This document shows, piece by piece, positions 1,925 to 31,731 of a DNA stretch of 64,000 nt. A model generated the notes under the pieces. That model was not told the origin of the DNA. It saw nothing but the letters and a program-made list of their open reading frames with translations, and ran no database searches. Within the stretch, counting starts at the first letter, position 1. Each line of letters starts with the position of its first letter. The position numbers and the translations under genes are program-made. This DNA is from Bifidobacterium sp. ESL0732 (lineage in GTDB: Bacteria > Actinomycetota > Actinomycetes > Actinomycetales > Bifidobacteriaceae): positions 1 through 64,000 of the forward strand of contig NZ_CP113920.1 in assembly GCF_029395535.1 (NCBI RefSeq). The letters run 5' to 3'.

Positions 1925-1930
1925 GCGGTC

Positions 1931-4060
1931 ATGAAGCCGGTAGGGCATGTCATCAAAGGCGAACGCCCCACTGTGGTCGTATCGCTCATCACCGTCGCGA
2001 TCGTCCTGATCATCAGCCTGTTCACTGGTCTGCTGACGCCCCCTGCCGCTGAAGGAATCACCGCCCTCATGCTGTCCGTGATTATGCTTTTCGGGCTGTT
2101 TTTCCCCTTGGCCGCACCCATGACGGCCATGGTCGCGGCAATGGGGGCGACACTGGCGGCAAGCGCCTCCCAGATACACAACGGTTATACGATCTCGACT
2201 TCTTTGCTGACGATTATCATAATCACGCTGATCGGCTCAGGCCTTATGTTGGGGTGTGAAAAACGGCGAAAAAAACTGGCTTCCATGTTGCCCCTAGCAT
2301 TTACGGTCGCCGGAATGGGCAACATCTTCTACGACAATATCGTCGTCCAAGATGCCAACAGCCCCATGGCAACAGGGCTTTTCGGCATAGTCCTCCTGTT
2401 CCTCTCCCCCTGGCTGCTGGGCCGCCTCGCCATGCAACAGCAAGATATCCGCAAGGCGGCCCAGGCTGCAGATCAATTGCAACAAACCACGATGCAACTC
2501 GAGCAGGTGGAGCGCGGCCGCGAGATGACCAGAGCAATCCAGAATTCCGTTTCCAAAGAACTGAAGTCCATTATCCAACTGACGAGGATGCCCCAAGATC
2601 CAGCAGATACTGCCCGCGTGCAGATTTCCGAAGAATCGAAAAAAGCACTCAACGCAATACACAAAGTCATCAATCTCTTGGACAGCCAACAAGGCAGCGA
2701 GACGTCAAATCACTGCAGCAATACAATCAAGGGCCAAAGCCATGCAGCAAACACCGATACGCAGGTGGCGACGGCACGGCCGGTATCGTATAGACCAGCC
2801 GCAATCGTCCGCCGAATCCACGGATGGCACAAAAGGCAAAGAATGGCGCAATCCACCATCCGCATCAGCTCACAGCATGCAAACCGAGACATCACAAACG
2901 TATCGTCCACCGCCACCAACCGCATCCGGAGCGACAAATTGTCGACGACGGTCATAGCAATCGGCGTCGCACTGGTCACGGTGTCGGGAATCGCGGGCGA
3001 CCCAGGAACCGTGCTTTCAACAACGGTGGGGCAAACCATCGTATCGGATTTGCTGCTACTTTCCGCAATGTTTCTGCCGACCGGCGGAGCCATCGCGGCT
3101 TTTGTCGCCAGCGGAATCTGCATCCTCATACCCGGAACCGCAAGAGCAGCGGTGTTCATATTGGCCATCGCCAGCGGGATATTGCTGGGATATTTACGAC
3201 GCAACGAGACATGGGGCGTCGCGGTGTGCGCGGCGACGAGCATAGCACTTTATTACGGCTTTGCCATGATGGGCCGCGGCGGTATCGGCACCATATTGAT
3301 GCTGGTGTTGATGTACATCAACCCTGTATTGATAGGACGCTTCTTCAGGATCCAGGAAAACCTGAACCAGACGATGCGCAACAATGAGAAACTGGAGACG
3401 AAAACCGCTCAGCTCGACAACGCACGTTACAACAGCATGCTTGCCGAAGCCATCCATGATTCCATCACCAACGAGCTCTCCTCGATCATTCTGCTCACCG
3501 ACGATGTCGCCAAACCCTGGACCGCCCAGACTCTGCACACGGTGAATCGTAAGGCATCTGGCGCACTTGGCAACATCAATGAAGTGGTCAAGCTGCTCAA
3601 CGGCGAGAAGAAGCAAACCGTGACGTCCGAGGCGAAGAGCCGCGACATACGCGAATGGTTGGTCAACCGCTGCGCCCAAGAGGATTCGTCGCTTCATGCG
3701 CTTGGATACTCCGGCATTTCAACAGTGCGCGGCGACTTGGTTGAGGGACGTAAAATCAACGCAAAGGCAGTGGAAACCGTCAATCGTTTGCTGTCCGAAA
3801 TCTACACGAATATCATTCGCCACGCACGCTCCGGCATCGACGGTTATGTGGTTGTCGTCGAGCTCGGCGAAGGGCAGGTGCGCATCACTGAAACCAATGA
3901 TTACAGTGATCCTGTTGCGGGTTTTACGCAGATCGCTCACGGCAAAGGTCTGGAACTGCATCAACAGTCTATCGAGGCTTTGGGCGGCACGATGGAGACC
4001 GTCGACGAAGACGGTTCATGGATCGTCAATTGCACTATTCCGCTTGTATTGACACAATAG
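1931..4060 (+). CDS. Sensor histidine kinase with duplicated membrane/dimerisation modules (K1)
   Basis: This 709-residue protein is a membrane sensor kinase of the NarL-partner type (HisKA_3-like). It contains two copies of one module. Module 1 has hydrophobic segments at about 14-165, a coiled coil at 170-200 and a dimerisation-like helix at 200-250. Module 2 has hydrophobic segments at about 337-470 and a dimerisation helix with phosphoacceptor His509 in AIHDSITNELSS. A HATPase domain follows, with N-box EIYTNIIRHA and a G2-like HGKGLEL. Module 1 has Gln204 where the histidine would be and no ATPase, so it is probably a sensory or structural half. The ATG follows dnaA by six bases with GGAAGG overlapping the dnaA end, so it is probably co-transcribed with dnaA. 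It is paralogous to the kinase at 11647. The likely partner is the response regulator at 10934; the signal is unknown. Confidence 0.8.
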   Translation: MKPVGHVIKGERPTVVVSLITVAIVLIISLFTGLLTPPAAEGITALMLSVIMLFGLFFPLAAPMTAMVAAMGATLAASASQIHNGYTISTSLLTIIIITLIGSGLMLGCEKRRKKLASMLPLAFTVAGMGNIFYDNIVVQDANSPMATGLFGIVLLFLSPWLLGRLAMQQQDIRKAAQAADQLQQTTMQLEQVERGREMTRAIQNSVSKELKSIIQLTRMPQDPADTARVQISEESKKALNAIHKVINLLDSQQGSETSNHCSNTIKGQSHAANTDTQVATARPVSYRPAAIVRRIHGWHKRQRMAQSTIRISSQHANRDITNVSSTATNRIRSDKLSTTVIAIGVALVTVSGIAGDPGTVLSTTVGQTIVSDLLLLSAMFLPTGGAIAAFVASGICILIPGTARAAVFILAIASGILLGYLRRNETWGVAVCAATSIALYYGFAMMGRGGIGTILMLVLMYINPVLIGRFFRIQENLNQTMRNNEKLETKTAQLDNARYNSMLAEAIHDSITNELSSIILLTDDVAKPWTAQTLHTVNRKASGALGNINEVVKLLNGEKKQTVTSEAKSRDIREWLVNRCAQEDSSLHALGYSGISTVRGDLVEGRKINAKAVETVNRLLSEIYTNIIRHARSGIDGYVVVVELGEGQVRITETNDYSDPVAGFTQIAHGKGLELHQQSIEALGGTMETVDEDGSWIVNCTIPLVLTQ

Positions 4061-4398
4061 CAACGGCATCTCTTACTTAAATTGTGATTTTTCTGTAAAA
4101 TTTTTTCCAAACGACGAAAATTCAGGGGCGATTACAGCTATTAGCCATTTGTCACACAATTAGACAATTGTCCACTTGCCAAAAATAAAAATAGCGCTTT
4201 GTCTATCTTGATATTTTTTTTACGCTTTTAAACTATTCATCGGCTTAATTTATATCTATTTTCACATTGAATCCCGATAAACGTGAGGCAGATAATCTTA
4301 CATATCGTAACGTTTTTTGTTTTACAAATGACCTGTCTCGCGCGCGAGAGAAAGGTTCCACGTCTCTGAAAATGACGCGGAATCAAGGAAGGAAGAAA
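4061..4398 (+). promoter_or_regulatory. AT-rich leader of BspA-1 with repeated TAGNNNNNNGTCTA-like sites
   Basis: This 338-base gap has no credible gene. It is far more AT-rich than its flanks. Three related 14-bp sites are visible: TAGCCATTTGTCAC at 4142-4155 (weak), TAGACAATTGTCCA at 4161-4174, and TAGCGCTTTGTCTA at 4192-4205. The last two start 31 bp apart. The same arrangement occurs before BspA-2, where the last site also ends about 195 bases before the start codon. A TTGATA at 4208-4213 could be part of a promoter, but no good -10 was seen. Binding by the response regulator at 10934 is inferred from site sharing, not shown. Confidence 0.55.
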
Positions 4399-7300
4399 AT
4401 GAGAAAATCATGGAAAGCCGCGGTCGGTATACTGGCCGCGATCGCCACGTTGGGGGCACCGGCGATAGCCGATGCCAACAACATCCAGGGCTCTGACCCG
4501 GGGCAGTCACAAAGCCAGGCGACAAACACTGTAGGGACGCAAGCGGCCATACCTTGCGCAGGTACGAAGAGCAGACCAGCGGACGGCGGTTATGCTGGAT
4601 GGCAGAAGACCGACGGCGCGGACGGCTGCACGATGACCTTCACGGCCGAAGGCGCAAACAATAAGATCAGATTCGATGCCGGCACCGAGAAGAGTGAAGT
4701 GACCGACGATGTACAACACGTCACCTTCTCGGGAACTACACCGACCAAACTCGACAACGTCTCAGCCACACAAGCCTTCAAGTTGAAACCTAATCTGCTG
4801 TCGTTCCGGAGCAACGGACTTGTGGATACATCTGACGTCACTAACATGTCATGGATGTTCTACGCCGACACCGCAATGACAAACATCGACCTCAGCGGCT
4901 TCAACACATCAAAAGTCACCAACATGGACACCATGTTCGGTATGGACGGCAAGCTGACAGATATCGACCTCAGCGGCTTCAACACATCAAAAGTCACCAA
5001 CATGGACAGCATGTTCTCAGCCACTTACCATCTTCACAACATCACAGGGTTGGATAAGTTCGACACTTCCCGTGTAACTGACATGAGCCACATGTTCGTA
5101 GGTATAAATAGCTACAATCAGCAACCAGCAGATCTGGACTTGTCGCAGTTTAATACCGCGAATGTTGAAGACATGACCAGCATGTTCGAATCCAGCAAGG
5201 TGAAATACATCAAGGGTCTGGAAAATCTCAACACTTCCAAGGTGAAATTGATGACCGGCATGTTCACAGCAAACGTAGTGCTGAACAAGCTGGATCTTTC
5301 GAAGTGGAACATGATCCATGTCAGTTCTCCGATTAGCCTTCCCGATAACCTTAAGCAAATCACCACTGGCCCGGAAACGAGTCTGAAGGCCTTAAGCTTC
5401 AAAGATTCTTCCAGCAAGTGGGCACAGGCATTGCCTGGTTCAGCCGACCATGACACCTTCTACAGCCCTGATGCATTGGCGTCACGAGTTGATAGCCACA
5501 ATTCCGGTACTTTTGGTACGTACGTCATTAAGCAGCAACATACTCTCACCCTGCAAAGCGACAAACAAGACGGATACACACTGGCTGGCTCGATGGCTCC
5601 GATACAGAGCGACGGTTATGACGGAGACACCACACCAGACGGCTCGACCTATGGCCCGCGCTACCAGACTGTCAATATCCCCAAAAACGAATTCTCCGTC
5701 CAGTACACAGACCATGTCGACACTAAAGACTTCACGTTCAGCGGGTGGTCCGACGGCAACGGCAAGACTTACAACGTCGGTGAAGCAGTCGACATGAACT
5801 CCGGCGACAAGACCCTTAAGGCACAATGGACCAAGAACCGTGATTCCCGCGGCCTGCATAATGACTACAACGAGGATAAATCCCTCACTCAGGGGGCATA
5901 CACCGAGAAAACCTGGCAAGAATTCCAGAATGCTCTGAACGCGGCCAAGAATGTGCTCAGCGACGGCAGCAAGAATCAGAATGCCGTTGACACGGCTCGA
6001 ACTAACCTTAAGAACGCGAAGGACAAGCTGCAGCTGAAAGCCGGCAAAGAGGGACTTCGGGTGCTCATAAACCAAGCAAACCAGCTGAAAGAGAGTGACT
6101 ACACCAAGGACACTTGGAAAAAATTGCCTGGTGCCAAAGATACAGCACAAACGGTTCTGGACGATGTAAACGCTACGGATCAACAAGTCAGCAATGCATT
6201 CGATACGCTGAACAATGCCATTACTGGTCTGAAGAAGAAAGCTAATTTCACCGCTCTCAACAATGCCATCACCGAAGCGAACAAGTACAAGCAGGACGAC
6301 TACACGCCTAATTCGTGGACACCGCTTGAAACAGCTCTCGGAAACGCAAAGGATGCCGTTGCCAACAAACAGGAAACCGCTTCGCAAGACGATGTCGATG
6401 CCCTCACGGCAGCGTTGAACAAGGCGATGAACAAGCTACAGGAGCGCGCAGATAAAACTGATCTGCAAAACTTGCTCAGCGAAATCGCCGGAATGGACTC
6501 AAAGAAGTTCACGCCGGGCCCTTGGAAAGCCCTCCAGGACGAGGTGACCAAGGCCAAGGCCGTCAATGACAACCTGAACGCCACTGACGCGCAAGTCGCT
6601 GCGGAAACCACAAAGCTCTCCGCGCTCAAAGACAAGCTGGTGAACAAGCCCGACAGGACTGAACTCAACAACCTGATTAACGAAGCCCAGCAAAACTATC
6701 CTTCGAGCGACCAAAAGAATTGGTCGAAAGATACTTGGACTCCGTTGCAAGATGCGCTTAACAACGCCATAACCGCCAACAAGGGCGAAGGCGAGAACGC
6801 CAACCTCACGCAGGACCAGATCAACGCCAAGAGTTACGCTCTGAGACTTGCGATGGGCGCTATGAAGCCCAGTGCTTGGAAGATCGCGCTGGATCGTCTC
6901 AATGGCTTGCTGGCCAAGGTTCCTGCAAGCAAGGACCCCTACACACCGAGTTCATGGGGTGGAATGACCGACGCCAAAGAAAAGGCCCAGAAGGTGCTTG
7001 CCGACCAGAAGGATCTTTCGAATCCCACGGACGCAAATGTAGTTGACCTGAACGCGGCATACAACTTGTTGGAATTCAAGCTCAATGCGTTGAAGGCCAA
7101 AGCCAACAACGATGCGTTGAAGCAACTGCTGAACGACGCCCGAACCCAATTCCCCGCCGCAGACAAGGACAAGTACACGCCCAGCTCCTGGAAGGGACTG
7201 TGGGGTGATGGAACAGCAGCCGACAGGGGCCCGATTTACAATGGTTCGCTCACTGCCATTGACGATGAGGCCACGGACGCACAAATCCAGAAAGCCATCA

Positions 7301-10300
7301 CAGACCTGAACAAGGCCGTGCTGGGCATGAAGGAGCGCGCCGACAAGTCGCTGCTGCAGTCCGCCATCAACAGCACCTCCGGGCTCAACAAGCTCGATTA
7401 CACCAATGACACTTGGCAGGCCTTGCAGGACGCGCTCACCGCGGCCGACAAGACCAACAAGGATCCTGAAGCCAGCCAGACGAAAGTCAACAGCGACACC
7501 GCCAATGTCAATAAGGCACTGCAGGGACTCAAGCACAGCGACCGCTGGGAACTGATCAACAAGATCGAGCAAAGCATTGCCGCCGCTCCGAAGTCAGATA
7601 ACATCTACACGCCGAATTCCTGGAAGGATATGACGGACGCTATCGCCGCCGCAGAGGGCAAGGTCGAACAGACCGAACCCGATGTCGCTTCCAACAAGGA
7701 CCTGCAGGCTGCACTGACCGCGCTGAACAAGGCCAAAGACAATCTGAAGCCCAGGGTGGATCGCAGCAACCTAACCGCTTTGATCAACAGAGCCCAAACC
7801 AAGTATCCTTCTGGTGATAACTACACCAATGATTCCTGGGCTGCTCTACAAGATGCGATCAACAAGGCCAAGGACATTAATGACAACTCTTCTGCAGCCG
7901 ATATCAACAAGGCACAGAACGATTTGCTCAACGCCATGGACGGTATGAAGGAGAAGGGCGACAAGGGCGCTCTCAATACTGCCATCAGCAATGTGCCCGC
8001 GGACAAGGACAAGGACAAATACACCAAGCCTACCTGGGATGCTTTGCAAGAAGCCATCAACCACGCCAAGGAAATCGCCGGCAAGCCTGATCCCTCCAAG
8101 GATGAGGTGAACGGAGCCATCGACGGCATCAGCAACGCCATCAACAAGCTCAAGCCAAGCAAGACTGCTCTTGAAGAAGCCATCAACAAGGCCAAACAGG
8201 AGACGCAGCCCGGCTATACCGATGATTCCTGGCAAGCTCTACAAAGCGCACTTGCTAACGCCACAGCCGTGGACAAGGACGATACCGCTTCTGCATCCAT
8301 CATCGGCTCGGCACTCGATGCCCTGAATGATGCGATGAGCAAGCTCAAGGTCGACAAGTCCAAGTTGGAAGCAGACATCGCCTTGGTCAAAGGTAAGGAT
8401 AAGAACGGCTTCACCGCTGACTCCTTGCAAGCACTGAAAGATGCGCTGGACAAGGCAGCCGCCGTGGTTGCCAATCCTGAAGCCAGCAAGTCCGACGTCT
8501 TAACTGCCGAGAATGATCTGAACAACGCGCTCGCCGGCCTCGTGGCTGACAAGTCCGCACTACAAACTGCCGTGAACCAGGCTGAGGATAAGCTCAACAA
8601 GGACAAGACGGACGGCAAGTACACCCCAACGAGCAAGGACAAGGTACAGCAGGCCATCAATGCAGCCAAGGTGGTTCTTGAGGACAACAATCCTACCAAA
8701 GACCAAGTCAACAAGGCCAAGCAGGATCTGCAAAACGCCTTGGACAACCTCGTTGAAAAAGGCAACAAGAAGCCGCTGCAGGACCTGTACGACAAGAACA
8801 AGGACAAGAATAAGGCCGACTTCGACCCGACGGATACGAGTCTGTGGCCCGCGTTCCAGAACGCATTGACACATGCCGAAGAAGTTCTCGGCAATCCGGA
8901 TGCAACCGAATCGGACGTGAACGCCGCTTTGGCTGACCTTGCGACTGCCATCAACAACCTTGTGCCCAACGGCCGTGGAGACCTCGTTGACGATGTCAAC
9001 GCTACCAACATGGACGAGAACAAGAACAAGTACACCGCCGACTCTTGGAAGCCCGTGCAGGCCGCCATCGACCACGCCAAAGACGTGATCGACAAGACAC
9101 CCGCACCCTCCAAGGCGGACGTCGACCAGGCCAAGCAACAGCTCGACCAGGCCAAGCTCGGCCTCGTCGCCAAGGGCGATCACAACGCCCTAGATGAGTT
9201 GATTAGCCAAGCCAAGGACGAGCTCGACAAGGGCAAGGACAAGTACACTCCGAACAGCAAGGACAAAGTCCAGGATGCCATCACCGCAGCTACCAAGCTA
9301 CCTGCTGATGCCACTCAGGATCAAATCGACAAGGCCAAGCAAGATCTGCAGAACGCCTTGAACGGTCTGACCGAGATTCCTGACAAGAGCACGCTGCAGG
9401 ACCTGTACAACAAGAACCAGGCGAAGCAAGAAGCTGACTTCGATCCCGCTAACTGGCCAGCGTTTACCGCCGCAATGCAGCAAGCTAACAAGGTGCTTAA
9501 CGACAAGAACGCGACCCAGAAAGACGTGAACAAGGCGCTTTCCGACCTTATCACCGCCGTCAGCAACCTCACACCCAACGGTCGCCAAGACCTCGCCAAC
9601 GAGATCGACGCAATCAGTAAGGACAAGGGCAAGTACACCGACGAGTCATGGAAGCCCGTGCAGGCCGCCATCGACCACGCCAAAGACGTGATCGGCAAGA
9701 CGCCCGCACCCTCCAAGGCAGAGGTCGACCAAGCCAAGCACCAACTCGATGACGCCAAAGGCAACCTCGTCGCCAAGGGCGATAAGACGGTTCTGGACGA
9801 AATCATTAAGCAAGCCAACAAGCAGATTCCAAACCAATCGAAGTACACGGAAGATTCTTGGAAGCATTTCGCCCAAGCACTTGCAGATGCGAAGAAGGTG
9901 CAGAGTGACCCGAACGCCGTTCAGGCTGTCATTGACCAAGCCTGGAAGAACCTGATCGACGCTGTGACCAACCTTCAGCCAACGAATGCTGGTTCCAACA
10001 CCGGTAACGGTGGTTCCGGCAATGGCGGTTCCGGCAACGGCGGTTCCAGCAACGGCGGTTCCAGCAACGGCGGTAACGGCGGTTCCGGTTCCAACGGTGG
10101 CAACGCTGGCAACGGCGGCAACGGCGGAAACGGCGGTAACGGCGGAAACTGGTCCGGTAACGGTGGTTCCGGTAACGGCGCAGGCAACGGCGGACAAGGT
10201 GTTTTGGTTGCAGGTCGCTCCCCGATTTATCTCTATCGTGGACTGCCATACGGGACTTTTGGCATGAACGGTGCCAATGGCGTGAATCCGAATGCAACCG

Positions 10301-10662
10301 ACGGTTCGAACACGAACTCCTCCGACGGATCCAACGGTTCCAGCAATCGTGATTCCATGAAGGACTCCAATAGCGGCAGCAAGTCCAAGCGAGGCGGCTC
10401 CAAGGTCTGTGTGAACAGCGATGGCGACATCGTCGAGATGTCTGCATGGACAACCTCGGATGGCAGCGTCGATATGGCAAAGATCCCTCGTTGCGAAACA
10501 GCAGTCGCCACCCCTGCTACGAAGACCTCACATGGGTTCAACTGGCTGTGGCTCCTGTTGCTGGTACTCATCGTCGCGGCGGTTTGCTTCGGCGTTTGGT
10601 ATGCACGCAACCGTGAGTCCGAGAACGGAGAACCCACTGCCCAGCATCGTACGGAAGTCTGA
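4399..10662 (+). CDS. Giant BspA-family LRR surface protein with 20 FIVAR-like repeats (BspA-1)
   Basis: A secreted, membrane-anchored adhesin-like protein of 2087 residues. The ATG at 4399 is preferred because AAGGAAGGAAG lies just upstream and a signal peptide starts there (cleavage likely after Ala26, IADA|NN). An in-frame TTG at 4267 would add 44 residues. The order of parts is: BspA-type (DUF285) leucine-rich repeats at about 140-315 with recurring NTSKVTNMDxMF; an InlB-type beta-repeat at about 375-480 ending in FSGWSDGNGKTY and LKAQW; twenty FIVAR-like helical repeats of 65-75 residues at about 480-1862; a Gly/Ser/Asn-rich stretch at about 1863-1933; two Cys near the C-terminus; one membrane helix at about 2046-2070; and a short basic tail. 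There is no LPXTG motif, so membrane rather than wall anchoring is likely. Binding to host or matrix is inferred from the family. Confidence 0.88.
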   Translation: MRKSWKAAVGILAAIATLGAPAIADANNIQGSDPGQSQSQATNTVGTQAAIPCAGTKSRPADGGYAGWQKTDGADGCTMTFTAEGANNKIRFDAGTEKSEVTDDVQHVTFSGTTPTKLDNVSATQAFKLKPNLLSFRSNGLVDTSDVTNMSWMFYADTAMTNIDLSGFNTSKVTNMDTMFGMDGKLTDIDLSGFNTSKVTNMDSMFSATYHLHNITGLDKFDTSRVTDMSHMFVGINSYNQQPADLDLSQFNTANVEDMTSMFESSKVKYIKGLENLNTSKVKLMTGMFTANVVLNKLDLSKWNMIHVSSPISLPDNLKQITTGPETSLKALSFKDSSSKWAQALPGSADHDTFYSPDALASRVDSHNSGTFGTYVIKQQHTLTLQSDKQDGYTLAGSMAPIQSDGYDGDTTPDGSTYGPRYQTVNIPKNEFSVQYTDHVDTKDFTFSGWSDGNGKTYNVGEAVDMNSGDKTLKAQWTKNRDSRGLHNDYNEDKSLTQGAYTEKTWQEFQNALNAAKNVLSDGSKNQNAVDTARTNLKNAKDKLQLKAGKEGLRVLINQANQLKESDYTKDTWKKLPGAKDTAQTVLDDVNATDQQVSNAFDTLNNAITGLKKKANFTALNNAITEANKYKQDDYTPNSWTPLETALGNAKDAVANKQETASQDDVDALTAALNKAMNKLQERADKTDLQNLLSEIAGMDSKKFTPGPWKALQDEVTKAKAVNDNLNATDAQVAAETTKLSALKDKLVNKPDRTELNNLINEAQQNYPSSDQKNWSKDTWTPLQDALNNAITANKGEGENANLTQDQINAKSYALRLAMGAMKPSAWKIALDRLNGLLAKVPASKDPYTPSSWGGMTDAKEKAQKVLADQKDLSNPTDANVVDLNAAYNLLEFKLNALKAKANNDALKQLLNDARTQFPAADKDKYTPSSWKGLWGDGTAADRGPIYNGSLTAIDDEATDAQIQKAITDLNKAVLGMKERADKSLLQSAINSTSGLNKLDYTNDTWQALQDALTAADKTNKDPEASQTKVNSDTANVNKALQGLKHSDRWELINKIEQSIAAAPKSDNIYTPNSWKDMTDAIAAAEGKVEQTEPDVASNKDLQAALTALNKAKDNLKPRVDRSNLTALINRAQTKYPSGDNYTNDSWAALQDAINKAKDINDNSSAADINKAQNDLLNAMDGMKEKGDKGALNTAISNVPADKDKDKYTKPTWDALQEAINHAKEIAGKPDPSKDEVNGAIDGISNAINKLKPSKTALEEAINKAKQETQPGYTDDSWQALQSALANATAVDKDDTASASIIGSALDALNDAMSKLKVDKSKLEADIALVKGKDKNGFTADSLQALKDALDKAAAVVANPEASKSDVLTAENDLNNALAGLVADKSALQTAVNQAEDKLNKDKTDGKYTPTSKDKVQQAINAAKVVLEDNNPTKDQVNKAKQDLQNALDNLVEKGNKKPLQDLYDKNKDKNKADFDPTDTSLWPAFQNALTHAEEVLGNPDATESDVNAALADLATAINNLVPNGRGDLVDDVNATNMDENKNKYTADSWKPVQAAIDHAKDVIDKTPAPSKADVDQAKQQLDQAKLGLVAKGDHNALDELISQAKDELDKGKDKYTPNSKDKVQDAITAATKLPADATQDQIDKAKQDLQNALNGLTEIPDKSTLQDLYNKNQAKQEADFDPANWPAFTAAMQQANKVLNDKNATQKDVNKALSDLITAVSNLTPNGRQDLANEIDAISKDKGKYTDESWKPVQAAIDHAKDVIGKTPAPSKAEVDQAKHQLDDAKGNLVAKGDKTVLDEIIKQANKQIPNQSKYTEDSWKHFAQALADAKKVQSDPNAVQAVIDQAWKNLIDAVTNLQPTNAGSNTGNGGSGNGGSGNGGSSNGGSSNGGNGGSGSNGGNAGNGGNGGNGGNGGNWSGNGGSGNGAGNGGQGVLVAGRSPIYLYRGLPYGTFGMNGANGVNPNATDGSNTNSSDGSNGSSNRDSMKDSNSGSKSKRGGSKVCVNSDGDIVEMSAWTTSDGSVDMAKIPRCETAVATPATKTSHGFNWLWLLLLVLIVAAVCFGVWYARNRESENGEPTAQHRTEV
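5836..9984 (+). repeat. Array of 20 FIVAR-like coding repeats
   Basis: Within BspA-1, twenty imperfect repeats of about 65-75 codons recur. Each has the pattern YTxxSWxxLQxAlxxAkxVL, an Asp/Asn spacer, and an AxxxLxxAxxxL helix. Units 14-16 and 17-19 form a higher-order triplet duplication with a period of 201 codons (603 bp) measured between 9046 and 9649. DNA identity is high there, for example the shared block starting TGGAAGCCCGTGCAGGCCGC. The array invites recombination and length variation. Confidence 0.85.
9988..10198 (+). repeat. Gly/Asn/Ser-codon tandem repeat
   Basis: Short repeats such as GGTTCCGGCAACGGC and GGCAACGGC encode a flexible Gly/Asn/Ser-rich linker in BspA-1 between the FIVAR stalk and the membrane anchor. 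The low-complexity DNA is a plausible site for slippage in steps of three. Confidence 0.8.
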
Positions 10663-10712
10663 TGCCAGCAACCTGGTGACGGTCTGCGTGTCCCCAGATA
10701 CGTCACCCGTGT

Positions 10713-10753
10713 GAATTCGTCCCATCGAACCAACCATTCGGTGGGACGAATTC
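10713..10753 (+). terminator. Strong hairpin after BspA-1
   Basis: Arms 10713-10729 and 10737-10753 form a 17-bp stem with one G-T pair, closing a 7-base loop CCAACCA. It begins 50 bases after the BspA-1 stop. It lacks a good T run, but the position and stem strength suggest termination or 3'-end protection. Confidence 0.65.
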
Positions 10754-10767
10754 GTATTTCAAAAACA

Positions 10768-10803
10768 ACGACAAAATGGCTTAAAACCGACTATAATAGT
10801 CTA
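10768..10803 (+). promoter_or_regulatory. Likely promoter of the response regulator, -10 inside a palindrome
   Basis: TATAAT at 10792-10797 lies 18 bases after ACGACA at 10768-10773 (four of six matches to TTGACA). The -10 is centred in the perfect 13-bp palindrome GACTATAATAGTC (10789-10801), and GTCTA (10799-10803) matches the right half of the sites found before the BspA genes. This would give a leader of about 130 bases. Autoregulation is inferred only. Confidence 0.45.
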
Positions 10804-10933
10804 TTGGAATAAGGGAAATCGGTTTAAAAGGATTGACGATTCTGTTTATCGTTTTCCGTTTTACATTTCTATAAACACTGTATAAGCATGCCATACTTAC
10901 ACAACGGAACAGAGAACACAAAGGAAGTGCACG

Positions 10934-11668
10934 ATGTATAGCAGTACAGGGGATACCTCCGTCCGACAAGATGACGTCCTCGCGTCCCAGAATGTGCACA
11001 ACAAGGCCGGCAGGACGCGACCATTACGTATCGCCGTCACCGACAATGACAACTTCGCCCTGATGACGCTCGCAAATCTTCTGCCGCATACCGTGCCCGA
11101 CTCCATCGTGATATGGAGCTCCACATCGGCCACCGACACCATTGCCAAAGCAACGGAACCCGCCTCGATGCCCGACATACTCATTCTCGACATGTCGCTG
11201 AGTTCGACCTATACCGGCCCTGAAGTCTGCCACGCCATTCGCAAGGTAACACCGAAGGTGAAAGTGCTGGGCATCACCTCTTACTCATTGGAACATTACG
11301 CGGCGGATCTGGCCGATGCGGGCGCACAAGGTCTGGTCTCCAAATCGGATATTCCCCAACTCCAGACGGCATTGCAGGCCATCTCGCAGGGCAACATCTA
11401 TTCGGTATTCAACGACGTTCATTTTTCGAGCGCCCAAGAGGCATACAACCGCATAAGCCGGGAACCTTCAAACGACAAGGTCCAACTGACGGAACATGAG
11501 AAGAAAATCATGGATCTGTTGGCACAGGGCAAACGATACAAGCAGATCGCTGACGAAATGGAAATCAGCGAATCGTCCATACGCACCGGCGCACATCGCG
11601 CGATCAAAAAGCTAGGTGCTTCCACGTTGAGCCAGGGCGTAGGTGTATGGATGTTGGAACACAAGTGA
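10934..11668 (+). CDS. LuxR/NarL-type response regulator
   Basis: A 244-residue DNA-binding response regulator. The receiver domain (about 31-155) has the acidic pair Asp37/Asp39 in TDNDN, the phosphoacceptor Asp86 in ILDMSLSS, Thr115 in GITSYS and Lys137 in VSKSD. The C-terminal LuxR-type helix-turn-helix (about 185-240) starts LTEHEKKIMDLLAQG. A good ribosome binding site AAGGAAG lies seven bases before the ATG. It lies between two surface-protein/kinase pairs and overlaps the following kinase gene, so it is the only regulator available to both kinases here. Its likely targets are the BspA genes with shared upstream sites. Confidence 0.88.
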   Translation: MYSSTGDTSVRQDDVLASQNVHNKAGRTRPLRIAVTDNDNFALMTLANLLPHTVPDSIVIWSSTSATDTIAKATEPASMPDILILDMSLSSTYTGPEVCHAIRKVTPKVKVLGITSYSLEHYAADLADAGAQGLVSKSDIPQLQTALQAISQGNIYSVFNDVHFSSAQEAYNRISREPSNDKVQLTEHEKKIMDLLAQGKRYKQIADEMEISESSIRTGAHRAIKKLGASTLSQGVGVWMLEHK

Positions 11669-13962
11669 ACAAAGCAGGCGACACCTCGATGGATGGCCGC
11701 TCGTCAGCGGCTTTCACCATCAAGGATGCTCTGCGGTTCATAAGTGAGAAACTCAGGCACGGCATCAAGGCCGAGCCACCCGTCATCGCAGTAACGGTCT
11801 GCGGCACCATTGTTCTTTTGGCTGTAAGCATATTCGGCGACCTATTCGCTTCCGCCGAATCTGCCGGAATTGTCGTTATCATACTCATAGCGGCATTGCT
11901 CAGCAGCCTGTTCGTGCCGACAATCGGTGCTATAGCTTCGTTTCTGGCAGCACTTTTCAGCATATATGTTTCGTATGGACTCCAGCAACAAGGTAATGAC
12001 ACCATTGCGAATTTTGTGCTGACCGATGTACTGGTGATGCTGATCGCTTCCGAGCTGATGTTGGGGTATCTCAAACGCTGGAAAAAACTGGCGTGTCTGA
12101 TGCCGATTTCGTTGGCAATCGCCATCATCATCACGCTCGTCAGCGATAATGCGGCACCCGGAAAACCAAGATATGCGATGGACAGCGGGCTGCTCGGCGT
12201 GATGTTGGTAATCATTTTCCCCTGGATTCTGGGCATGATTGCCAGACAGCAGAGCGATATGCGCGGCACCATGCGCAAGGAGGACGAACTGCGTCGGGCC
12301 ACCATACGGCTCGAGGCGACGCGTCAGAACCGCCGAATGGCGGCAACTCTGCACAACAAGGTCATGGAAGAGCTGAAATCCATCAACGTGTTTGCCGGCC
12401 AAGCCGAAGCACTGACCGCCGACGGGCGCCAACGCATCGCAGGAGAAGCGAAAAAGGCACTGAACGAGATGCATCAGGTCATCAATCTCTTCGATGAGAT
12501 TTCCGACGCCGGTGAGCCGATTGGCAACGGGACAGCGACATACGGCAAGGTGGCGCGAATAGTGCATCTCCTGCGCATGCCAAGAATCAAGGAAAAACGC
12601 GAAAATCCGGCGCGACAAGGGGTGCCGACGACATCGCGAACGGCAACGCATACCGTCTTGCAACACAGGCCCATATCCAATAGGTGCAAGGCCTCAGCCG
12701 ACATTCATGACGCCGTCGCGCCGGCCACGGAAACCACCCACGGACCACGCACCGAAACAAACCGCAAAATAACCGCTAAAACAAACGGCAAAGTCAGTCA
12801 CAGCCTTCGTCTTGACCGGTTTACGGCACCCACCATCGCCATCAGCCTGACGGCAATAATCGTCTCGACATTCATACCCTCCCCCTATGCTCCGTCGCTC
12901 TCGCTGCCGATGACCGCGCTCATGGCGTTGCTATCGCTGCTCATGGTGTTCCTGCCGACCGCAGGCGCGGCAATCGCGTTCATCGTGGCCGTAAGCCTCA
13001 TCATGATACCGGGAATCCCTCATGTGGCCGCCTACATCATGACCGTCTGCAGCGGCATCCTGCTGGGCTATTCGCGGCGCGGCCGGCATTGGAGCCTCTG
13101 GTTGTGCGTGGCCATGACCGTGGTGTTTCTTGGCGATCTCATCCTGGTCGAACACGACATATTGGCCCGCATACTGACCATGGCACTCCTTACTCTTGCC
13201 CCATGGAAAATCGGACGGTATGCCAGACGTCAACAGGGGCTGAACCATGCGGCATGGATCAACAGCCAGTTGTTGACGAAAACGACCCAGCTCAACAAGG
13301 AACACTACGATGGCATACTTGCCGAGGCCATCCACGACTCCATCACCAACGAGCTTTCCACCATCATTTTGCTCACCGACGACCCAAACAGGAAATGGAC
13401 GAACCAAACCTTGCAACTGGTGGGTCGCGCGGCTCAGGATGCGTTCGACAACATCGGAGAGGTCATCGATCTGCTCAACGGCACCGGCAACACACCCAAC
13501 GAGTTCAATGACGCCACCCGCGATGTTCACGGATGGCTGGTCGCACGGCTCGCCCACGAGGATTCGTCGCTTCACGCCCTCGGCTATACCGGGATATCGC
13601 AGGTGCGCGGCGGCCTGGGTAAAGGCGAAAAGGCGAATATGGAGTCCATAGGGATGGCGAACCACCTGCTTACCGAGATCTATACCAACATTGTTCGGCA
13701 CGCAAGCCCTGGTATCGACGGTTATGCGCTTGTCGCCGAACTCGAAAACGGATGGCTGCGCATCACGGAAACAAACGATTGCAGCGGTTCGGGCCTCGAA
13801 CTCAAGGGAGTGGAACACGGCAAAGGACTTGGGTTGCATAAGGATTCGGTGGAAGCCATGGGTGGCACGTTCGAGACGGCGGCCGAAGACGATTCGTGGA
13901 TTGTCAATTGCACCATTCCGCTTGCAACCAAGCAAAAAGACCATTCAAAGGTTGGACAATAG
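11647..13962 (+). CDS. Sensor histidine kinase with duplicated membrane/dimerisation modules (K2)
   Basis: A 771-residue paralogue of the kinase at 1931 with the same double-module layout. Module 1 has membrane segments at about 46-200 and a dimerisation helix with His236 in TLHNKVMEELKS. Module 2 has membrane segments at about 392-520, phosphoacceptor His563 in AIHDSITNELST, and a HATPase domain with N-box EIYTNIVRHA and HGKGLGLH. Unlike K1, the first module keeps a histidine, though it has no ATPase domain of its own. The start is uncertain. ATG 11647 overlaps the regulator gene by 22 bases, GTG 11665 overlaps its stop codon, and ATG 11689 lies just beyond. None has a strong ribosome binding site, which suits translational coupling. 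It probably phosphorylates the regulator encoded just upstream. Confidence 0.8.
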   Translation: MDVGTQVNKAGDTSMDGRSSAAFTIKDALRFISEKLRHGIKAEPPVIAVTVCGTIVLLAVSIFGDLFASAESAGIVVIILIAALLSSLFVPTIGAIASFLAALFSIYVSYGLQQQGNDTIANFVLTDVLVMLIASELMLGYLKRWKKLACLMPISLAIAIIITLVSDNAAPGKPRYAMDSGLLGVMLVIIFPWILGMIARQQSDMRGTMRKEDELRRATIRLEATRQNRRMAATLHNKVMEELKSINVFAGQAEALTADGRQRIAGEAKKALNEMHQVINLFDEISDAGEPIGNGTATYGKVARIVHLLRMPRIKEKRENPARQGVPTTSRTATHTVLQHRPISNRCKASADIHDAVAPATETTHGPRTETNRKITAKTNGKVSHSLRLDRFTAPTIAISLTAIIVSTFIPSPYAPSLSLPMTALMALLSLLMVFLPTAGAAIAFIVAVSLIMIPGIPHVAAYIMTVCSGILLGYSRRGRHWSLWLCVAMTVVFLGDLILVEHDILARILTMALLTLAPWKIGRYARRQQGLNHAAWINSQLLTKTTQLNKEHYDGILAEAIHDSITNELSTIILLTDDPNRKWTNQTLQLVGRAAQDAFDNIGEVIDLLNGTGNTPNEFNDATRDVHGWLVARLAHEDSSLHALGYTGISQVRGGLGKGEKANMESIGMANHLLTEIYTNIVRHASPGIDGYALVAELENGWLRITETNDCSGSGLELKGVEHGKGLGLHKDSVEAMGGTFETAAEDDSWIVNCTIPLATKQKDHSKVGQ

Positions 13963-14300
13963 TAAAGATATGGTGAATTTTAATTTCTCAACATTGAGAA
14001 CGTATCGCAGTGCGGATTTTCTCCGTTTTCTTGATAAATAGACAAACGTCTACCGGATATAGATATTTGTCTACAAATTGAAAACAAAAAGTAGCGAACT
14101 GTCTATTACCTCGTTGCAAAACGTCATAAAAAGCCCGGAATCCCCCTAAAAACATCACTCTGCCGGCACATTACACTATGCATCAGAAGCTCGAGGATCT
14201 AAGGCAATACAATATAATATTTATTTGTAATACTCACAGGTCGTAACAGGTGAAATCAAAGATGTCATGCGCCAAGTGGGAAGAACGACGAAGGAAGTTC
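13963..14300 (+). promoter_or_regulatory. AT-rich leader of BspA-2 with three TAGNNNNNNGTCTA sites
   Basis: A 338-base gap without a gene. Three 14-bp sites fit one pattern: TAGACAAACGTCTA at 14039-14052 (perfect 5-bp arms), TAGATATTTGTCTA at 14060-14073, and TAGCGAACTGTCTA at 14092-14105. Starts are 21 and 32 bp apart, close to two and three helical turns. The last site lies 195 bases before the BspA-2 start, as for BspA-1 (193). No confident -35/-10 pair was found. These are candidate binding sites of the LuxR-type regulator at 10934. Confidence 0.6.
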
Positions 14301-17015
14301 ATGAAGAACAATTGGAAAGCCGCGATCGGCGCGCTGGCGGCAATCGCCTCACTGACGGCACCTGTGCTGGCCAACGCCGACGGAATCGACACAGGTTCCG
14401 GCGAGACGCATTCCCAAGTCCACGTTCAGGACACTCTCCAACCAATACCTTGTGTCGCACCATTCTCCGCCCCGGCTACTGACGGGCATGCCGGATGGCG
14501 AAAATCCGACACTTTTGAAGGCTGCACCCTGACCGTCAAAGCCGAGGGCACCAACAACGCGATGCCCAATGCCGTGAGCAACGAGGTGCAGCATGTCACC
14601 TTCGCAGGCCCCTCCAAGACCGTATTCAGCGATACTACTAGCCTCAATCTCAGCTCCAAACCCAACCTGGTGACATTCACGAGCGCGAGTCTGGTGGACT
14701 CCTCGCAGCTGACCGACATGGCCTTCCTCTTTATGGGCGATACAGCGCTTCAACGCATCGACCTCGCCGGCTTCAACACCAGCAACGTGACCAACATGAA
14801 CAGCATGTTCGCCAGCGATATCGCCCTTCAATACCTTAATATCAGCAACTTCAGCACCACAAGCGTCACCGATATGGGAAACATGTTCTACGGCAATGTA
14901 TCCATGCGAGATCTTGACCTGAGAATGTTCATTACTCTCGGCGTCACCAACATGCAGAACATGTTTTACGGCGACCATCTCCTCAATCAACTGAACCTCA
15001 GCAGCTTCGATACCAGCAGCGTCAAAAATATGCAGGGCATGTTCGCCGGACTCAACAGCGGAAACAACACGCCCATGGATCTCAACCTGTCCACTTTTGA
15101 CACCGAAAACGTGGAAAACATGGACAGCATGTTCGCGAACGCCAACGTAAGCAACATCGAGGGCCTCAGCGCGTTCAGGACCGGCAAGGTGAAGTACATG
15201 CACAACATGTTCGCGACGAGCCCTCTGACCACACTGGACCTGACCACCTGGGACATGACCAAAACCGAGATTTCTCCAGGATCTCCATTGCCACCGGGCC
15301 AGGCCGCCCCCACCCCGATTACACTTCCTGCCAACCTCACCCAACTGACCGTCAGTTTGACAACTCGTTTGGGCAGTGACAGTTTTCCTGTCGCCGCGAC
15401 CGGATTCACCTGGACACAGGTGACCAGCCCATATGTCAGCTTCGACCACGATGCGTCATACACCACCTCCCAGCTAATCGACCACGTCAATGCGGCCTCT
15501 ACCGATGTGAAGGGCACTTACCTCCGGCAAATAAAGCGCGTTGCGCTGCTGGACAACGAGGCACCAGAAGATGGATATTCGTCGACCACCGCACCATCGA
15601 CTGCGCCAAATCCGCTGGTCGCCCTCGGATATAATGCTGACGCTAACCTGCCCGACGGGGACGGGGGAACAGCGTATGTCGCCAATCGTGAAATGAAAGT
15701 CACGCTTCCCGGCAACACCATCACCTACTCCAACGGAGGCCACGAGACCAAAGACTTCACCTTCGTAGGCTGGAAGGACGCGGTGGCCAACAGGATCTAC
15801 CCCGCAGGCGATACCGTCACCCTTACCGCGGATAGCGTGACACTGAAAGCCAACTGGAACAGGAACAGGGATTCCAGAAGTCTCAACGACGAATACATTG
15901 TCGATTCCGGCATAACGAATGACCATTATTACACCAATGCCACGTGGAACGCGTTCCAGACGGCCCTGAACGCCGCGGGGAACGTGCTCGCCGACGGCAG
16001 CAAGGGGCAAACCAACGTCGACACGACTCTCGCCAACCTCTGCGATGCACGATCAAAACTTGACAAGTCCCCTTTGCAGATACTGGTCGACCAAGCCGGC
16101 AGACTCACTCAAAACGACTACACCAGCGACTCATGGAATAGCCTGCAGCACGCCCTGACAGCCGCAAAAAACGTACTCGACAACCACAACTCGACTCAAG
16201 ATGAAATATCCGCAGCCGTCAGGAACCTGACACAAGCCATGAAAAGTCTGGTACGCCAAAACCACAACGGCCATGACAAAACCGTATTAAGCGATACCAT
16301 CAAAGAGGCTGAGAACAAGAAACGAACAGGCAATAAAGACGGTAGATACGATGAAACGGCCTGGAGAAATTTCCTTGGCGCCCTGGATCTCGCGGAAGAT
16401 ACGCAGAACGACTCGAACACCACCCAAGACATCATCGACAACGCCTGGCAGCATCTGATCGACACTATCGCCGGCCTTGAGCCAACGCCGTCTGGCAGTG
16501 ACTCGGGCATCACCAGCGATAGTGAACATAGCAACACCGAAGGCAAAAAAGAGGAAAACAGCAGCCATAACGGCAAGGATGATACAGTCAAAAACGCAAA
16601 AGATAAAGGCAATGGATCTTCGGCCGACAGCGACAAGAAGTCAGACGGCTCATCGAACGGCAACAACCAAGATTCACCATCGTCGTTACAACGCCGACAG
16701 GTGCCGTCGCCGTCCGGCAAGAAGCAATCGACAAATGTCGACGAATCCAATGACTTCAACGGTGCAATCCTCAACGCACGCAGCAATGATACGCAGCCTT
16801 CTCTGCACGGCTCCCAAAATGGCAATCAAAACAGTGATGCGCACCATCGTCAAAGGGACAAGACCACAGCCGGCGCAAGGAGCGCCTCATCAAGGCATCC
16901 CGCTGCTTGGTCATGGATGATTGGGCTTGTGCTTATCATCACGATTGCATGCCTTATAGCAGGGTACCTTTACACCTGCAAGAGGAAAAACAACGCAACA
17001 AGCAGTGACGAGTAA
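14301..17015 (+). CDS. BspA-family LRR surface protein with 3 FIVAR-like repeats (BspA-2)
   Basis: A 904-residue secreted, membrane-anchored protein and a shorter relative of BspA-1. The ATG at 14301 is chosen for the AAGGAAG just upstream and the signal peptide (cleavage likely after Ala26, VLANA|DG); an in-frame start at 14250 lacks these. BspA-type LRRs span about 138-322 (FNTSNVTNMNSMF and variants). An InlB-type repeat spans about 411-520 (FTFVGWKD, LKANW). Three FIVAR-like repeats occupy about 520-730. A long Ser/Asp/Lys/Asn-rich region follows, then one membrane helix at about 868-890 and a basic tail. The three FIVAR units match units 1, 2 and 20 of BspA-1. There is no sortase motif. 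It follows K2 and shares upstream sites with BspA-1. Confidence 0.85.
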   Translation: MKNNWKAAIGALAAIASLTAPVLANADGIDTGSGETHSQVHVQDTLQPIPCVAPFSAPATDGHAGWRKSDTFEGCTLTVKAEGTNNAMPNAVSNEVQHVTFAGPSKTVFSDTTSLNLSSKPNLVTFTSASLVDSSQLTDMAFLFMGDTALQRIDLAGFNTSNVTNMNSMFASDIALQYLNISNFSTTSVTDMGNMFYGNVSMRDLDLRMFITLGVTNMQNMFYGDHLLNQLNLSSFDTSSVKNMQGMFAGLNSGNNTPMDLNLSTFDTENVENMDSMFANANVSNIEGLSAFRTGKVKYMHNMFATSPLTTLDLTTWDMTKTEISPGSPLPPGQAAPTPITLPANLTQLTVSLTTRLGSDSFPVAATGFTWTQVTSPYVSFDHDASYTTSQLIDHVNAASTDVKGTYLRQIKRVALLDNEAPEDGYSSTTAPSTAPNPLVALGYNADANLPDGDGGTAYVANREMKVTLPGNTITYSNGGHETKDFTFVGWKDAVANRIYPAGDTVTLTADSVTLKANWNRNRDSRSLNDEYIVDSGITNDHYYTNATWNAFQTALNAAGNVLADGSKGQTNVDTTLANLCDARSKLDKSPLQILVDQAGRLTQNDYTSDSWNSLQHALTAAKNVLDNHNSTQDEISAAVRNLTQAMKSLVRQNHNGHDKTVLSDTIKEAENKKRTGNKDGRYDETAWRNFLGALDLAEDTQNDSNTTQDIIDNAWQHLIDTIAGLEPTPSGSDSGITSDSEHSNTEGKKEENSSHNGKDDTVKNAKDKGNGSSADSDKKSDGSSNGNNQDSPSSLQRRQVPSPSGKKQSTNVDESNDFNGAILNARSNDTQPSLHGSQNGNQNSDAHHRQRDKTTAGARSASSRHPAAWSWMIGLVLIITIACLIAGYLYTCKRKNNATSSDE

Positions 17016-17599
17016 TCGGCACACGAATATACAAGAAACATGCGATTTTGCGCAAAAAAATAGTTTACACTGTTTAACGTTTTTCGCTCAGTCGTCATTC
17101 TTTCGTTTTCGTGCACGCGTTCAAAAAAGAGCATCTGAGAGAAGGCCGTAGAGACCGAAATTGACACTGTTTTTACCTTATCCACTGAGCGACACACCGA
17201 CTGTGGAAAGAAATTCAGGAAAATTTATCCACATAGTTATTCACAAATGGGGGTAAACTCGGCGGATAAGTCGTGGATACCACCGATAAACCCTGTGGAA
17301 AAGTCGTGGACGACTCTTCAAAAAGTGTGGACAGAAAAAGCGCGAAACCTCTGCGGTGGATAACTTAACGTTTTATCCACAATTCCTCTCTTAGTTATCC
17401 ACATGCTCTCATGCTGTGGATAACGCTGTTCGTAAGTGGTTTAAGAGGTTATCCACATATTCACCGTGCTTATTATCCTGATTACTAGAACAAACTTACG
17501 TTTCATCATTGTCAGCGACGCGAACAAGTTGAATCTGTATCTCACGATAAAAAGAAGCAACTAGAATAGAAACCAGTTATCACCCAAAGTAGGAGCATT
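17016..17599. other. Chromosomal replication origin oriC (DnaA-box cluster)
   Basis: This gene-free 584-base stretch before dnaN holds a dense cluster of DnaA boxes. Perfect TTATCCACA copies lie at 17225-17233, 17373-17381, 17395-17403 and 17449-17457 on the plus strand and at 17415-17423 on the minus strand. TTATTCACA lies at 17237-17245. One-mismatch copies lie at 17178-17186, 17294-17302 (minus) and 17355-17363 (minus). AT-rich flanks at about 17030-17130 or 17460-17580 could be the unwinding element. In relatives this cluster lies between dnaA and dnaN. Here it abuts dnaN only. Confidence 0.92.
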
Positions 17600-18721
17600 A
17601 TGAAAGTCGAAATCAACTCCACCGCACTTGCGGACGCGGTTGCATGGACTACCCGTGTCATCGACGCACGACCTGCCAACCCGATTCTTGCCGGCATCAA
17701 GCTCGAAGCCGCAGACGGAACTTTGCAACTTTCCGCCTTCAACTATGAGATTTCCGCCCGCCACCACATCGAAGCGGGCGTCGACGAAGCCGGAAAAGTG
17801 CTGGTTCAAGGCAAACTGCTCGCCGATATCACCAAGTCGCTGCCGCAGGAAAAAGCCTATCTTTCCACCACCGAGACGACACTAACCATTACCTCGGGCA
17901 AGTCGACATTCAACCTGCAGCTCATGCCGGAATCCGAATACCCGGATCTCCCCGAAGCCCCGGCCATGCTCGGCCAGGTTGATGCGCCGACTTTTGTTCA
18001 GGCGGTTTCACAGGCTTCGGTCGCAGTCTCCCACGAGGAAAATCGTCCGGTTTTGACCGGTGTTCGTATCCAGTTCAACGGCGAGAAAGTCGTGATGACC
18101 TCGACGGATCGCTTCCGTCTCTCCCGTTCCAGCTTCACCTGGACCCCGCAGGACAACGATTTGGAAACCGAAACGCTCGTTCGCGGCTCGCTGTTGCGCG
18201 ATGTGGCTCGAGCAGTTGACGAACACCAAAATGTCGTTATCGATTTCAACCCGGAAAGCCCGTCATTGCTTGGTTTTGAGAATGCCGGACGCGTTTCGAC
18301 CTCGCAGCTCATCGACGGTGAATTCCCCGCGGTCGATAGGCTGTTCTCCGATGAATACCCGATTGAGGCTGTTATTTCCAAGGAAGCGCTGCTCGGCGCT
18401 ATCAAACGTGTGGCACTAGTCGCGGAACGTAATGCACCGATTCGTATGGTATTTGAAGGCCAGACCTTGACGCTTTCCGCGGGAACCGCCGACGAATCCC
18501 AGGCCAAGGAAGTGCTCGACATCGACATGGACGGCGAAAATATCACTGTCGCTTTCAACCCTTCATACCTGATTGAAGGCTTGAGCGCGATTACCGAGCC
18601 GTTCGTGCGGATGAAGATGACCACCGCCGTCAAGCCGGTCGAGTTCAACGGGCAACAAGAAGCAGATTCCGATGAATCGATGGATTATCGCTATCTGCTC
18701 GTGCCGATGCGGTTCAACTGA
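17600..18721 (+). CDS. dnaN: DNA polymerase III beta sliding clamp
   Basis: A 373-residue sliding clamp that encircles DNA and tethers polymerase III. It begins MKVEINSTALADAV and ends with the family's typical YLLVPMRFN. Length and the three-domain repeat fit the family. TAGGAG lies about six bases before the ATG. It follows oriC and is separated from recF by a strong terminator, so recF probably also has its own promoter. Confidence 0.97.
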   Translation: MKVEINSTALADAVAWTTRVIDARPANPILAGIKLEAADGTLQLSAFNYEISARHHIEAGVDEAGKVLVQGKLLADITKSLPQEKAYLSTTETTLTITSGKSTFNLQLMPESEYPDLPEAPAMLGQVDAPTFVQAVSQASVAVSHEENRPVLTGVRIQFNGEKVVMTSTDRFRLSRSSFTWTPQDNDLETETLVRGSLLRDVARAVDEHQNVVIDFNPESPSLLGFENAGRVSTSQLIDGEFPAVDRLFSDEYPIEAVISKEALLGAIKRVALVAERNAPIRMVFEGQTLTLSAGTADESQAKEVLDIDMDGENITVAFNPSYLIEGLSAITEPFVRMKMTTAVKPVEFNGQQEADSDESMDYRYLLVPMRFN

Positions 18722-30800: not shown

Positions 30801-31731
30801 GGGCAACAAGTATTACCGCGAGGATCAGCAGCGCTGGCAGTTTACCGGTTGGAGCGATGGCATGGGCCATACTTATCAGGCTGGCGATACCGTCAACTTG
30901 ACTGATGCCAACCCGCATGTCGTGCTGACTGGTCAGTGGGCCCGCGTTTACAACTACAACCTGCGTTTCCAGCCTACGTCCAAGAACGACAAGGCCAAGG
31001 TCTCGCGTAGCTTTGCCGCGGTCTCCGGAGGAAGCACCACCGACGAAACGATGGTGATGACCATTCCGAGCAAGTACAGCTTGAATCTCGACGAGACCGG
31101 ACACTATATGTTCACCGGTTGGAAGGATCAAGACGGAACTCTCTACAAGCCTGGCGACCACGTCATGCTGAAGAGTGACAATTCGGATGTGACGCTTTAC
31201 GGTGTTTGGAAGTTAGAGCCTGTTACGAATCCTGCTGGACCGACCTCTCCGAGTGAGACCACGAATCCTGCGACGCTTCCGGCTGCCACGAATCCAAACA
31301 GTTCGGTACAAGTGGCTGCTCCGGCATTGCCTGTTGCCGCCGCTGTGTCTCCTCAGTCGGCTTTGACTGTGGCTCCTCGTGGTGTTGCTGGTGCTGCTCC
31401 TCAGGCGATGACCACTGCACCGCAGATCGGTCATGATAGGACTCCGTCCGTGCCGAAGACTCCTGCTCCAAAGGATTGGCGCCGTGCCGAATGCAAGACT
31501 TCCGGTGCTGCCTATGTAGTTAATGTCGCTGGCTATCGCGTGATGGCAAGCGGTAATGTATGTGAAACTCCGAAGACTGCTGCTTCAGCGGCTTTGACGC
31601 AACATGCAAATGCGCCTGTCTGGCTCTGGTGGATTATTGTTGCTGTAGCGATTGCGCTTGTTTATGGGATTTATGTCAAGCGCAATAGCTCCCTTGAAGC
31701 GCAACATCGTGCCAACGAGCGCCAAGACTGA
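27874..31731 (+). CDS. BspA-family LRR surface protein with InlB-type repeats (BspA-3)
   Basis: A 1285-residue secreted, membrane-anchored protein. The signal peptide is cleaved probably after Ala27 (ATASA|QP). A Gln/Asn/Ala-rich spacer follows to about 130. Twelve BspA-type LRRs span about 222-546 with repeats like SLDVSHFDTHNVTDMAGMF. Two of these are near-identical in DNA with a 78-bp period (28938 and 29016 onward). Five InlB-type beta-repeats span about 632-1115, each with FTGW-like and LYAQW-like motifs. A Pro/Ala-rich linker, two Cys, a membrane helix at about 1247-1268 and a basic tail containing EAQHR complete it. The tail resembles that of BspA-1. No sortase motif is present. The LRR part is more AT-rich than the rest. 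Confidence 0.87.
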   Translation: MRFNGGKLIGIVATAALMCGVVATASAQPAQPVDATANSAASQQVSTASTQDAAKSDIGKNLNNDENNVIGQAPKDEAPQDTTKSEQKAPTPNSSAKDDNTANTRSSAAPTPSTQSNQNATVGPQEVLPTTADCKPYKGGNAAESSANGSWTLGMKDGQCTLEVTATDPVNEYQFTVIPSTLDDSEPSVAYQRAFIEHVIFNGVGKVKLPASAHGYFDHMMKLSSIDGLDHLDTSAVTDMSSMFEATRIPSLDLSSFDTSSVTNMSDMFYGASAASIQFGPRFVTNKVTDMSSMFARDQALTSLDLSGFDTSNVEYMYYMFHMAEGLTTLKFGANFKTSKVKNMTAMFMFCSKLKSLDVSHFDTHNVTDMAGMFEYCYNLTSLDVSHFDTHNVTDMAGMFKNCSSLTSLDITNFDTSQVGRDSYGVDAGTPRDMNGMFQDCVNLQSLKLGQKFQTGNVKDMGSMFSGCEKLTSLDVSGFDTHKVINMSGMFAVCEDLTSLDVSHFNTRNVTDMTDMFMSDGALTSLDLRNFNMRGVSKVRHMLSIANSDPDQFDLRELKLGDNVVLPTPASTGTWWGDIWLEDPLMSDATWVRVADVNGAAVPEANLSKQYSSLDVEHRTQGSDPSRSGTYVRSDSTKLSVDMNAVGDKKWGTVSDPQKAVGHFKYVQNAQGQDVWQMQFGTLKAPDKTALHVNMSVDNAANSPKYFKFTGWNTSKDGTGTSYAPGQDVPMNNDVTLYAQWKRIGTPGVSMDLHAKYVLDFKMNPPAGSGVTEPAAPDKATSVFQLDSPADITKPHAIKIDHQAYPAIDGYRFDGWTLNGSTTVYKPGDQVSVVPGVTELKGHWTKLYTYSLKFNANASKGVTGSMPQVGSVGPTADTSHTFTIPANGFVRAGWHFNGWNTKADGTGQSPVSASGVDTLTLNSNNPAATLYAQWVPEYVYSLSFVSGLPEGTASKAFDPVKGKATTAKSASLKVPAGNKYYREDQQRWQFTGWSDGMGHTYQAGDTVNLTDANPHVVLTGQWARVYNYNLRFQPTSKNDKAKVSRSFAAVSGGSTTDETMVMTIPSKYSLNLDETGHYMFTGWKDQDGTLYKPGDHVMLKSDNSDVTLYGVWKLEPVTNPAGPTSPSETTNPATLPAATNPNSSVQVAAPALPVAAAVSPQSALTVAPRGVAGAAPQAMTTAPQIGHDRTPSVPKTPAPKDWRRAECKTSGAAYVVNVAGYRVMASGNVCETPKTAASAALTQHANAPVWLWWIIVAVAIALVYGIYVKRNSSLEAQHRANERQD

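Follow-up and report, generated by a model that had tools for sequence, protein, structure and literature searches.

Probable length change in the middle of the stalk in a pair of predicted fibrillar adhesins encoded between dnaA and dnaN of a bifidobacterium

Introduction

The interval between dnaA and dnaN of Bifidobacterium sp. ESL0732 encodes two neighbouring surface proteins, BspA-1 and BspA-2, with heads of the same architecture and stalks of 20 and three FIVAR units, respectively. How did two paralogues come to carry stalks of such different length? A preliminary description of this DNA read the 17 middle units of BspA-1 as one internal expansion beneath tip domains that had stayed the same. 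Here, the question is addressed in a 64,000-nt stretch of the genome (contig NZ_CP113920.1, positions 1 to 64,000, denoted the window), and by comparison with 112 genomes of the genus.

Results

The window opens with dnaA (5–1924), and the 15.7 kb separating it from dnaN (17600–18721) form an island (1925–17599) that holds, in this order and all on the + strand, membrane sensor-kinase-like protein 1 (1931–4060), BspA-1 (4399–10662), a response regulator with a LuxR-type DNA-binding domain (10934–11668), membrane sensor-kinase-like protein 2 (11647–13962), and BspA-2 (14301–17015). The response regulator sits between both adhesin genes. The two kinase-like proteins are paralogues; the first gave no Pfam match and is called kinase-like from the appearance of its sequence and its position beside a response regulator. 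The gene order between dnaA and dnaN is the same in one other species (genome G093), where the gap measures 11.8 kb. It is 3.9 kb in G087, with a response regulator and kinase only, and approximately 0.5–0.7 kb in G085, G086 and G089. Adhesins are absent from this site in species nearer to the window by dnaN (95–99%) and present in the remoter G093 (90%), which implies loss or transfer. The presence of the island as a whole is patchy, suggestive of mobility.

The BspA-1 reading frame spans 4267–10662 with TTG 4267 as its listed start; ATG 4399 opens the signal peptide, which is conserved in G093. In the head (4477–5838), a beta domain similar to the InlB B-repeat comes after DUF285/Liste_lipo_26 repeats; a predicted head model of moderate confidence (pLDDT 78) partly recovers this resemblance. 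The 20-unit stalk is followed by the C-terminal part (9988–10659) with a Gly/Asn/Ser-rich linker, a juxtamembrane Cys-pair module (KVCVNSDGDIVEMSAW...IPRC), and a transmembrane helix; an LPXTG motif was not seen in this part. BspA-2 (reading frame 14250–17015) combines the same head architecture with three FIVAR units, a charged linker, and a transmembrane helix. The Cys-pair module (CVNSDGDIVEMSAW...RC) is common to BspA-1 and the three-FIVAR sister proteins introduced below, and is missing from BspA-2. The adhesin head matches PF03382 and TIGR02167 repeats, as PARCEL/DUF285 surface proteins do. The tip domains, described earlier as unchanged, retained their architecture but not their sequence, as the two heads are about 43% identical and that of BspA-2 has one extra 26-residue repeat and loop insertions. 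Among the head repeats of BspA-1, two neighbouring 62-nt copies (4877–5016) stand out at 95% identity, well above the similarity of the remaining repeats. Tandem-domain stalk, head and surface anchor occur together as in fibrillar adhesins, and from this architecture an adhesive role can be inferred; BspA-1 and BspA-2 are accordingly described here as putative paralogous membrane-anchored fibrillar adhesins.

The stalk of BspA-1 is tiled by 20 FIVAR-spaced units (U1–U20) of 65–79 residues each at 5839–9987, three bases off the 20-unit span first described (5836–9984), which is thereby confirmed. Pfam FIVAR (PF07554) matches BspA-1 with an E-value of 7.7e-128 and 417.7 bits (cut-off 29.2) in 17 significant stretches, and about 17 of the 20 units pass the per-domain thresholds. 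As U6 and U7 (6877–7344) gave no match in the genome scan, the count of 20 includes degenerate units. In BspA-2, three units tile 15867–16490 (V1, 15867–16064; V2, 16065–16277; V3, 16278–16490; E-value 3.4e-20, three significant stretches). Most pairs of BspA-1 units are 30–45% identical in amino acid sequence, and the best pair, U16/U19 (73% at the amino acid and 83% at the nucleotide level), is not adjacent. FIVAR proteins are widespread in the genus (98/112 genomes), and another member, G103, has an array of 19 or more units within a single reading frame, so that 20 units are not exceptional. Among related FIVAR models, most belong to enzymes of bifidobacteria.

Stalk structure was modelled in non-overlapping five-unit windows. 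The U11–U15 model (mean pLDDT 93) is predicted to form three-helix bundles throughout, the fold expected of FIVAR, and the best solved match found by Foldseek was EbhA (2DGJ), with Embp structures (6GV8, 4KJM) also recovered. Bending of the chain between units kept whole-chain TM-scores low. In Embp, one F-repeat comprises two bundles and is about 70 Å long, and four repeats span 21.2 nm in solution as a rod by SAXS (PMC7587433). Applying the approximately 2.7–3.5 nm per unit of these F-repeats, we estimate stalk lengths of approximately 53–70 nm for 20 units, 29–39 nm for 11 units, and 8–10 nm for three. As Embp F-repeats themselves bind fibronectin (PMC7587433), the BspA “stalk” may bind a ligand too.

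The three BspA-2 units are the reciprocal best matches of BspA-1 units 1, 2 and 20, the correspondence already named in the preliminary description. V1 scored 158.5 with the head-proximal, orthologous U1 (5839–6048; next unit 76, z 6.6 over the 20 units), and V3 scored 140 with the membrane-proximal, orthologous U20 (9784–9987; next unit 78, z 5.1). The pairing of V2 with U2 (6049–6246) is the weakest of the three (114.5; next unit 102, z 2.0). None of 500 residue shuffles reached any of the three scores, and identical ranks were returned for the G093 orthologue of BspA-2. The repeat phylogeny proposed earlier as a check agrees at both ends of the stalk: when 50 units were placed in a maximum-likelihood tree, the last units grouped together across both paralogues and both species (100/100), as did the first units (89/87, and 100/99 with the set reduced to 28 units). 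For the second units, the grouping reached 43/77 in the reduced set, and a single group was not rejected (AU p 0.33); with only about 67 aligned columns per unit, deep branching lacks resolution. No middle unit falls within the groups of first and last units, so none appears to derive from U1 or U20 after the paralogues split. Neither an origin of all middle units in unit 2 (AU p 0.32) nor a single clade of middle units (AU p 0.23) was rejected.

Orthologues of both heads were found in only one other species among the 112 genus genomes, G093, with 53% (BspA-1) and 62% (BspA-2) head identity. A family-level sample of 151 genomes yielded no additional head orthologue, and searches of genome-contig and viral-contig collections for close relatives returned only distant DUF285 proteins. 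In G093, BspA-1 has 11 units and BspA-2 three; as one genome per species was compared, 20 versus 11 units is a between-species difference. In the head tree, the two BspA-1 (83/78) and the two BspA-2 (100/100) form one clade (100/98), whose sister group comprises four proteins of other species with three FIVAR units each (joint support 99/98). In this tree, long stalks are limited to the two BspA-1 orthologues, and growth on the BspA-1 branch from a short ancestor is more parsimonious because the BspA-2 orthologues and the sister group all have three units. The count in the sister group may have arisen independently, as the unit tree joins the second and third units of these proteins (88/84). 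We regard the converse, a long ancestor with BspA-2 shortened by internal deletion, as rather unlikely: unit identity is as low within the BspA-1 array as between the paralogues, so a long array could date back to the duplication itself, and the AU test leaves descent from unit 2 standing, but separate shortening to three units would be required in BspA-2 and in the sister group.

The window encodes a third DUF285 surface protein (27874–31731), which has Listeria-Bacteroides repeats and a transmembrane end and is devoid of a FIVAR stalk. By its head, it clusters with a protein of G088 whose gene lies about 14 kb from the beginning of the contig. At 37155–49189, three tandem paralogues combine a CshA_NR2 head with GEVED and SpaA-type domains. 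At locus L105 (G000:C1:1716000-1733000), two similar adjoining surface proteins each carry numerous repeats of the Listeria-Bacteroides type and a pair of FIVAR units.

The 11 units of G093 BspA-1 (W1–W11) correspond one to one and in order to U1, U2 and U12–U20, with U12–U13 (8161–8550) orthologous to W3–W4. Only W10 scores marginally higher with U16 (224) than with U19 (221), both copies of a duplicated unit. Indeed, U14–U16 (8551–9180) and U17–U19 (9181–9783) represent the two copies of a three-unit segmental duplication with 54–73% amino acid identity and a strong +3 offset signal, not significant outside U14–U19 (p 0.08 in U2–U13). As U17 groups with W8 (98/97), the duplication probably predates the split from G093. 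Within G093, W6 groups with W9 (93/92) and W7 with W10 (90/80). Identical runs of 42 nt (W6/W9), 53 nt (W7/W10) and 46 nt (U16/U19) are found, the pattern expected for gene conversion. None of the alternatives in the AU tests on duplication and homogenisation was rejected. U16 (8974–9180) and U19 (9583–9783) moreover have GC3 values of 0.84 and 0.82, raised against about 0.7, and their fourfold sites agree unusually often with those of W7/W10 (17–21 of 23–27 sites), which hints at gene conversion or at exchange between lineages.

The nine-unit block U3–U11 (6247–8160), which includes the degenerate U6 and U7, has no counterpart in G093 and was found in one species only. These units are far more diverged than the orthologous ones, with nearest-unit path lengths of 0.99–1.95 versus 0.27–1.0 (Mann–Whitney p 1e-4), a mean tip length of 1.08 versus 0.27, and best identities of 32–48% within their own array. 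Loss of the block in G093 is therefore more likely than its recent gain in the window's lineage, with the caveat that faster evolution of U3–U11 would mimic age. The expansion reading of the preliminary description implies such a gain after the G093 split, by tandem duplication and subsequent fast divergence. The block is indeed missing from the sole orthologue, and several shared units have longer tips in the window than in G093 (e.g. U12 0.46 versus W3 0.18), so that the array may evolve faster here. Still, this scenario appears improbable, as U3–U11 would have had to evolve about four times as fast as their neighbours and have neither a close parent in the array nor a +9 offset signal. Import by recombination from another FIVAR protein outside the sampled genomes is less likely again, since the abundance of FIVAR proteins in the genus and the apparent mobility of the island are met by the lack of any closer donor in the 112 genomes (best 31–41% identity) and by G+C and GC3 values equal to those of U12–U20 (0.548/0.715 versus 0.555/0.722).

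Two more specific candidates were rejected. A nine-unit tandem duplication relating U3–U11 to U12–U20 was dismissed as the +9 offset signal is absent beyond U3–U12, and W3 as a clean U3/U12 chimera marking the deletion point was dismissed as the alignment has no clean switch and W3 follows U12 overall.

In summary, growth on the BspA-1 branch is the part of the expansion reading that holds. A single 17-unit expansion from three retained units is not supported, because the groups of first and last units exclude the middle units, U12–U19 are shared with G093, and U3–U11 are absent there and too diverged for a recent origin.

Discussion

The best explanation for the combined data, and a reasonably probable one, is a pair of paralogous adhesins with length change in the middle of the stalk on the BspA-1 branch, U3–U11 having most likely been lost in G093. 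In both proteins, a rod of FIVAR bundles, each of three helices, would keep a leucine-rich PARCEL/DUF285 head with a beta domain at a distance from the cell. The end units would be fixed, unit 1 joining the head and the last unit the linker, while the BspA-1 array would have grown in the middle before the two bifidobacterial lineages parted. The three-unit block would have been duplicated and later partly homogenised, and the nine-unit block U3–U11 then lost, most likely, in G093. As a result, the two heads would be displayed at different heights, and the two-component genes of the island may regulate the adhesins.

More tentatively, the stalk may have fixed ends and a variable middle: position-specific caps conserved across paralogues and species, between which diverged three- and nine-unit blocks are gained, lost, and partly homogenised. 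The stalk-length evolution of BspA-1 and BspA-2 is a tidy, largely ordinary example, in which length apparently can change in arrays of already strongly diverged units. It also provides a natural homologous series of 3, 11 and 20 units with mapped correspondence, which can be used to examine the effect of stalk length on the reach of an adhesin.

Among known systems, PARCEL/DUF285 (TIGR02167) proteins are likewise predicted to lie at the surface and have a domain of tandem PARCEL repeats (PMC2996958); that paper describes the repeat motif, and Bifidobacterium is unmentioned in its text. Fibrillar adhesin-like proteins share the combination of stalk, N-terminal head and surface anchor (PMC8286594, PMC9210967), although FIVAR and DUF285 are unnamed in the main text of both papers. 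Embp of S. epidermidis and Ebh of S. aureus likewise array tandem diverged FIVAR three-helix bundles in an elongated rod (PMC7587433). They differ in their much greater length (10 F and 40 FG repeats in Embp) and in having no PARCEL/DUF285 head, and no neighbouring short paralogue is described in PMC7587433.

Periscope proteins (Sgo0707, Rib, SasG; PMC8201768, PMC9704523) also present a functional head at the N-terminus of a rod of tandem domains, with repeat numbers that differ between relatives, and FIVAR is among the stalk folds listed in PMC9704523. Their definition requires repeats of high identity (in the survey, at least 80% over 50 residues) together with variation between strains (PMC8201768), whereas most BspA-1 units share the 30–45% identity given above and the variation is seen between species. 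Judged from its sequence, BspA-1 is not a Periscope protein as defined and would work like a fibrillar adhesin. If its stalk does have fixed ends, length change would proceed here in the absence of near-identical repeats, which Periscope proteins require.
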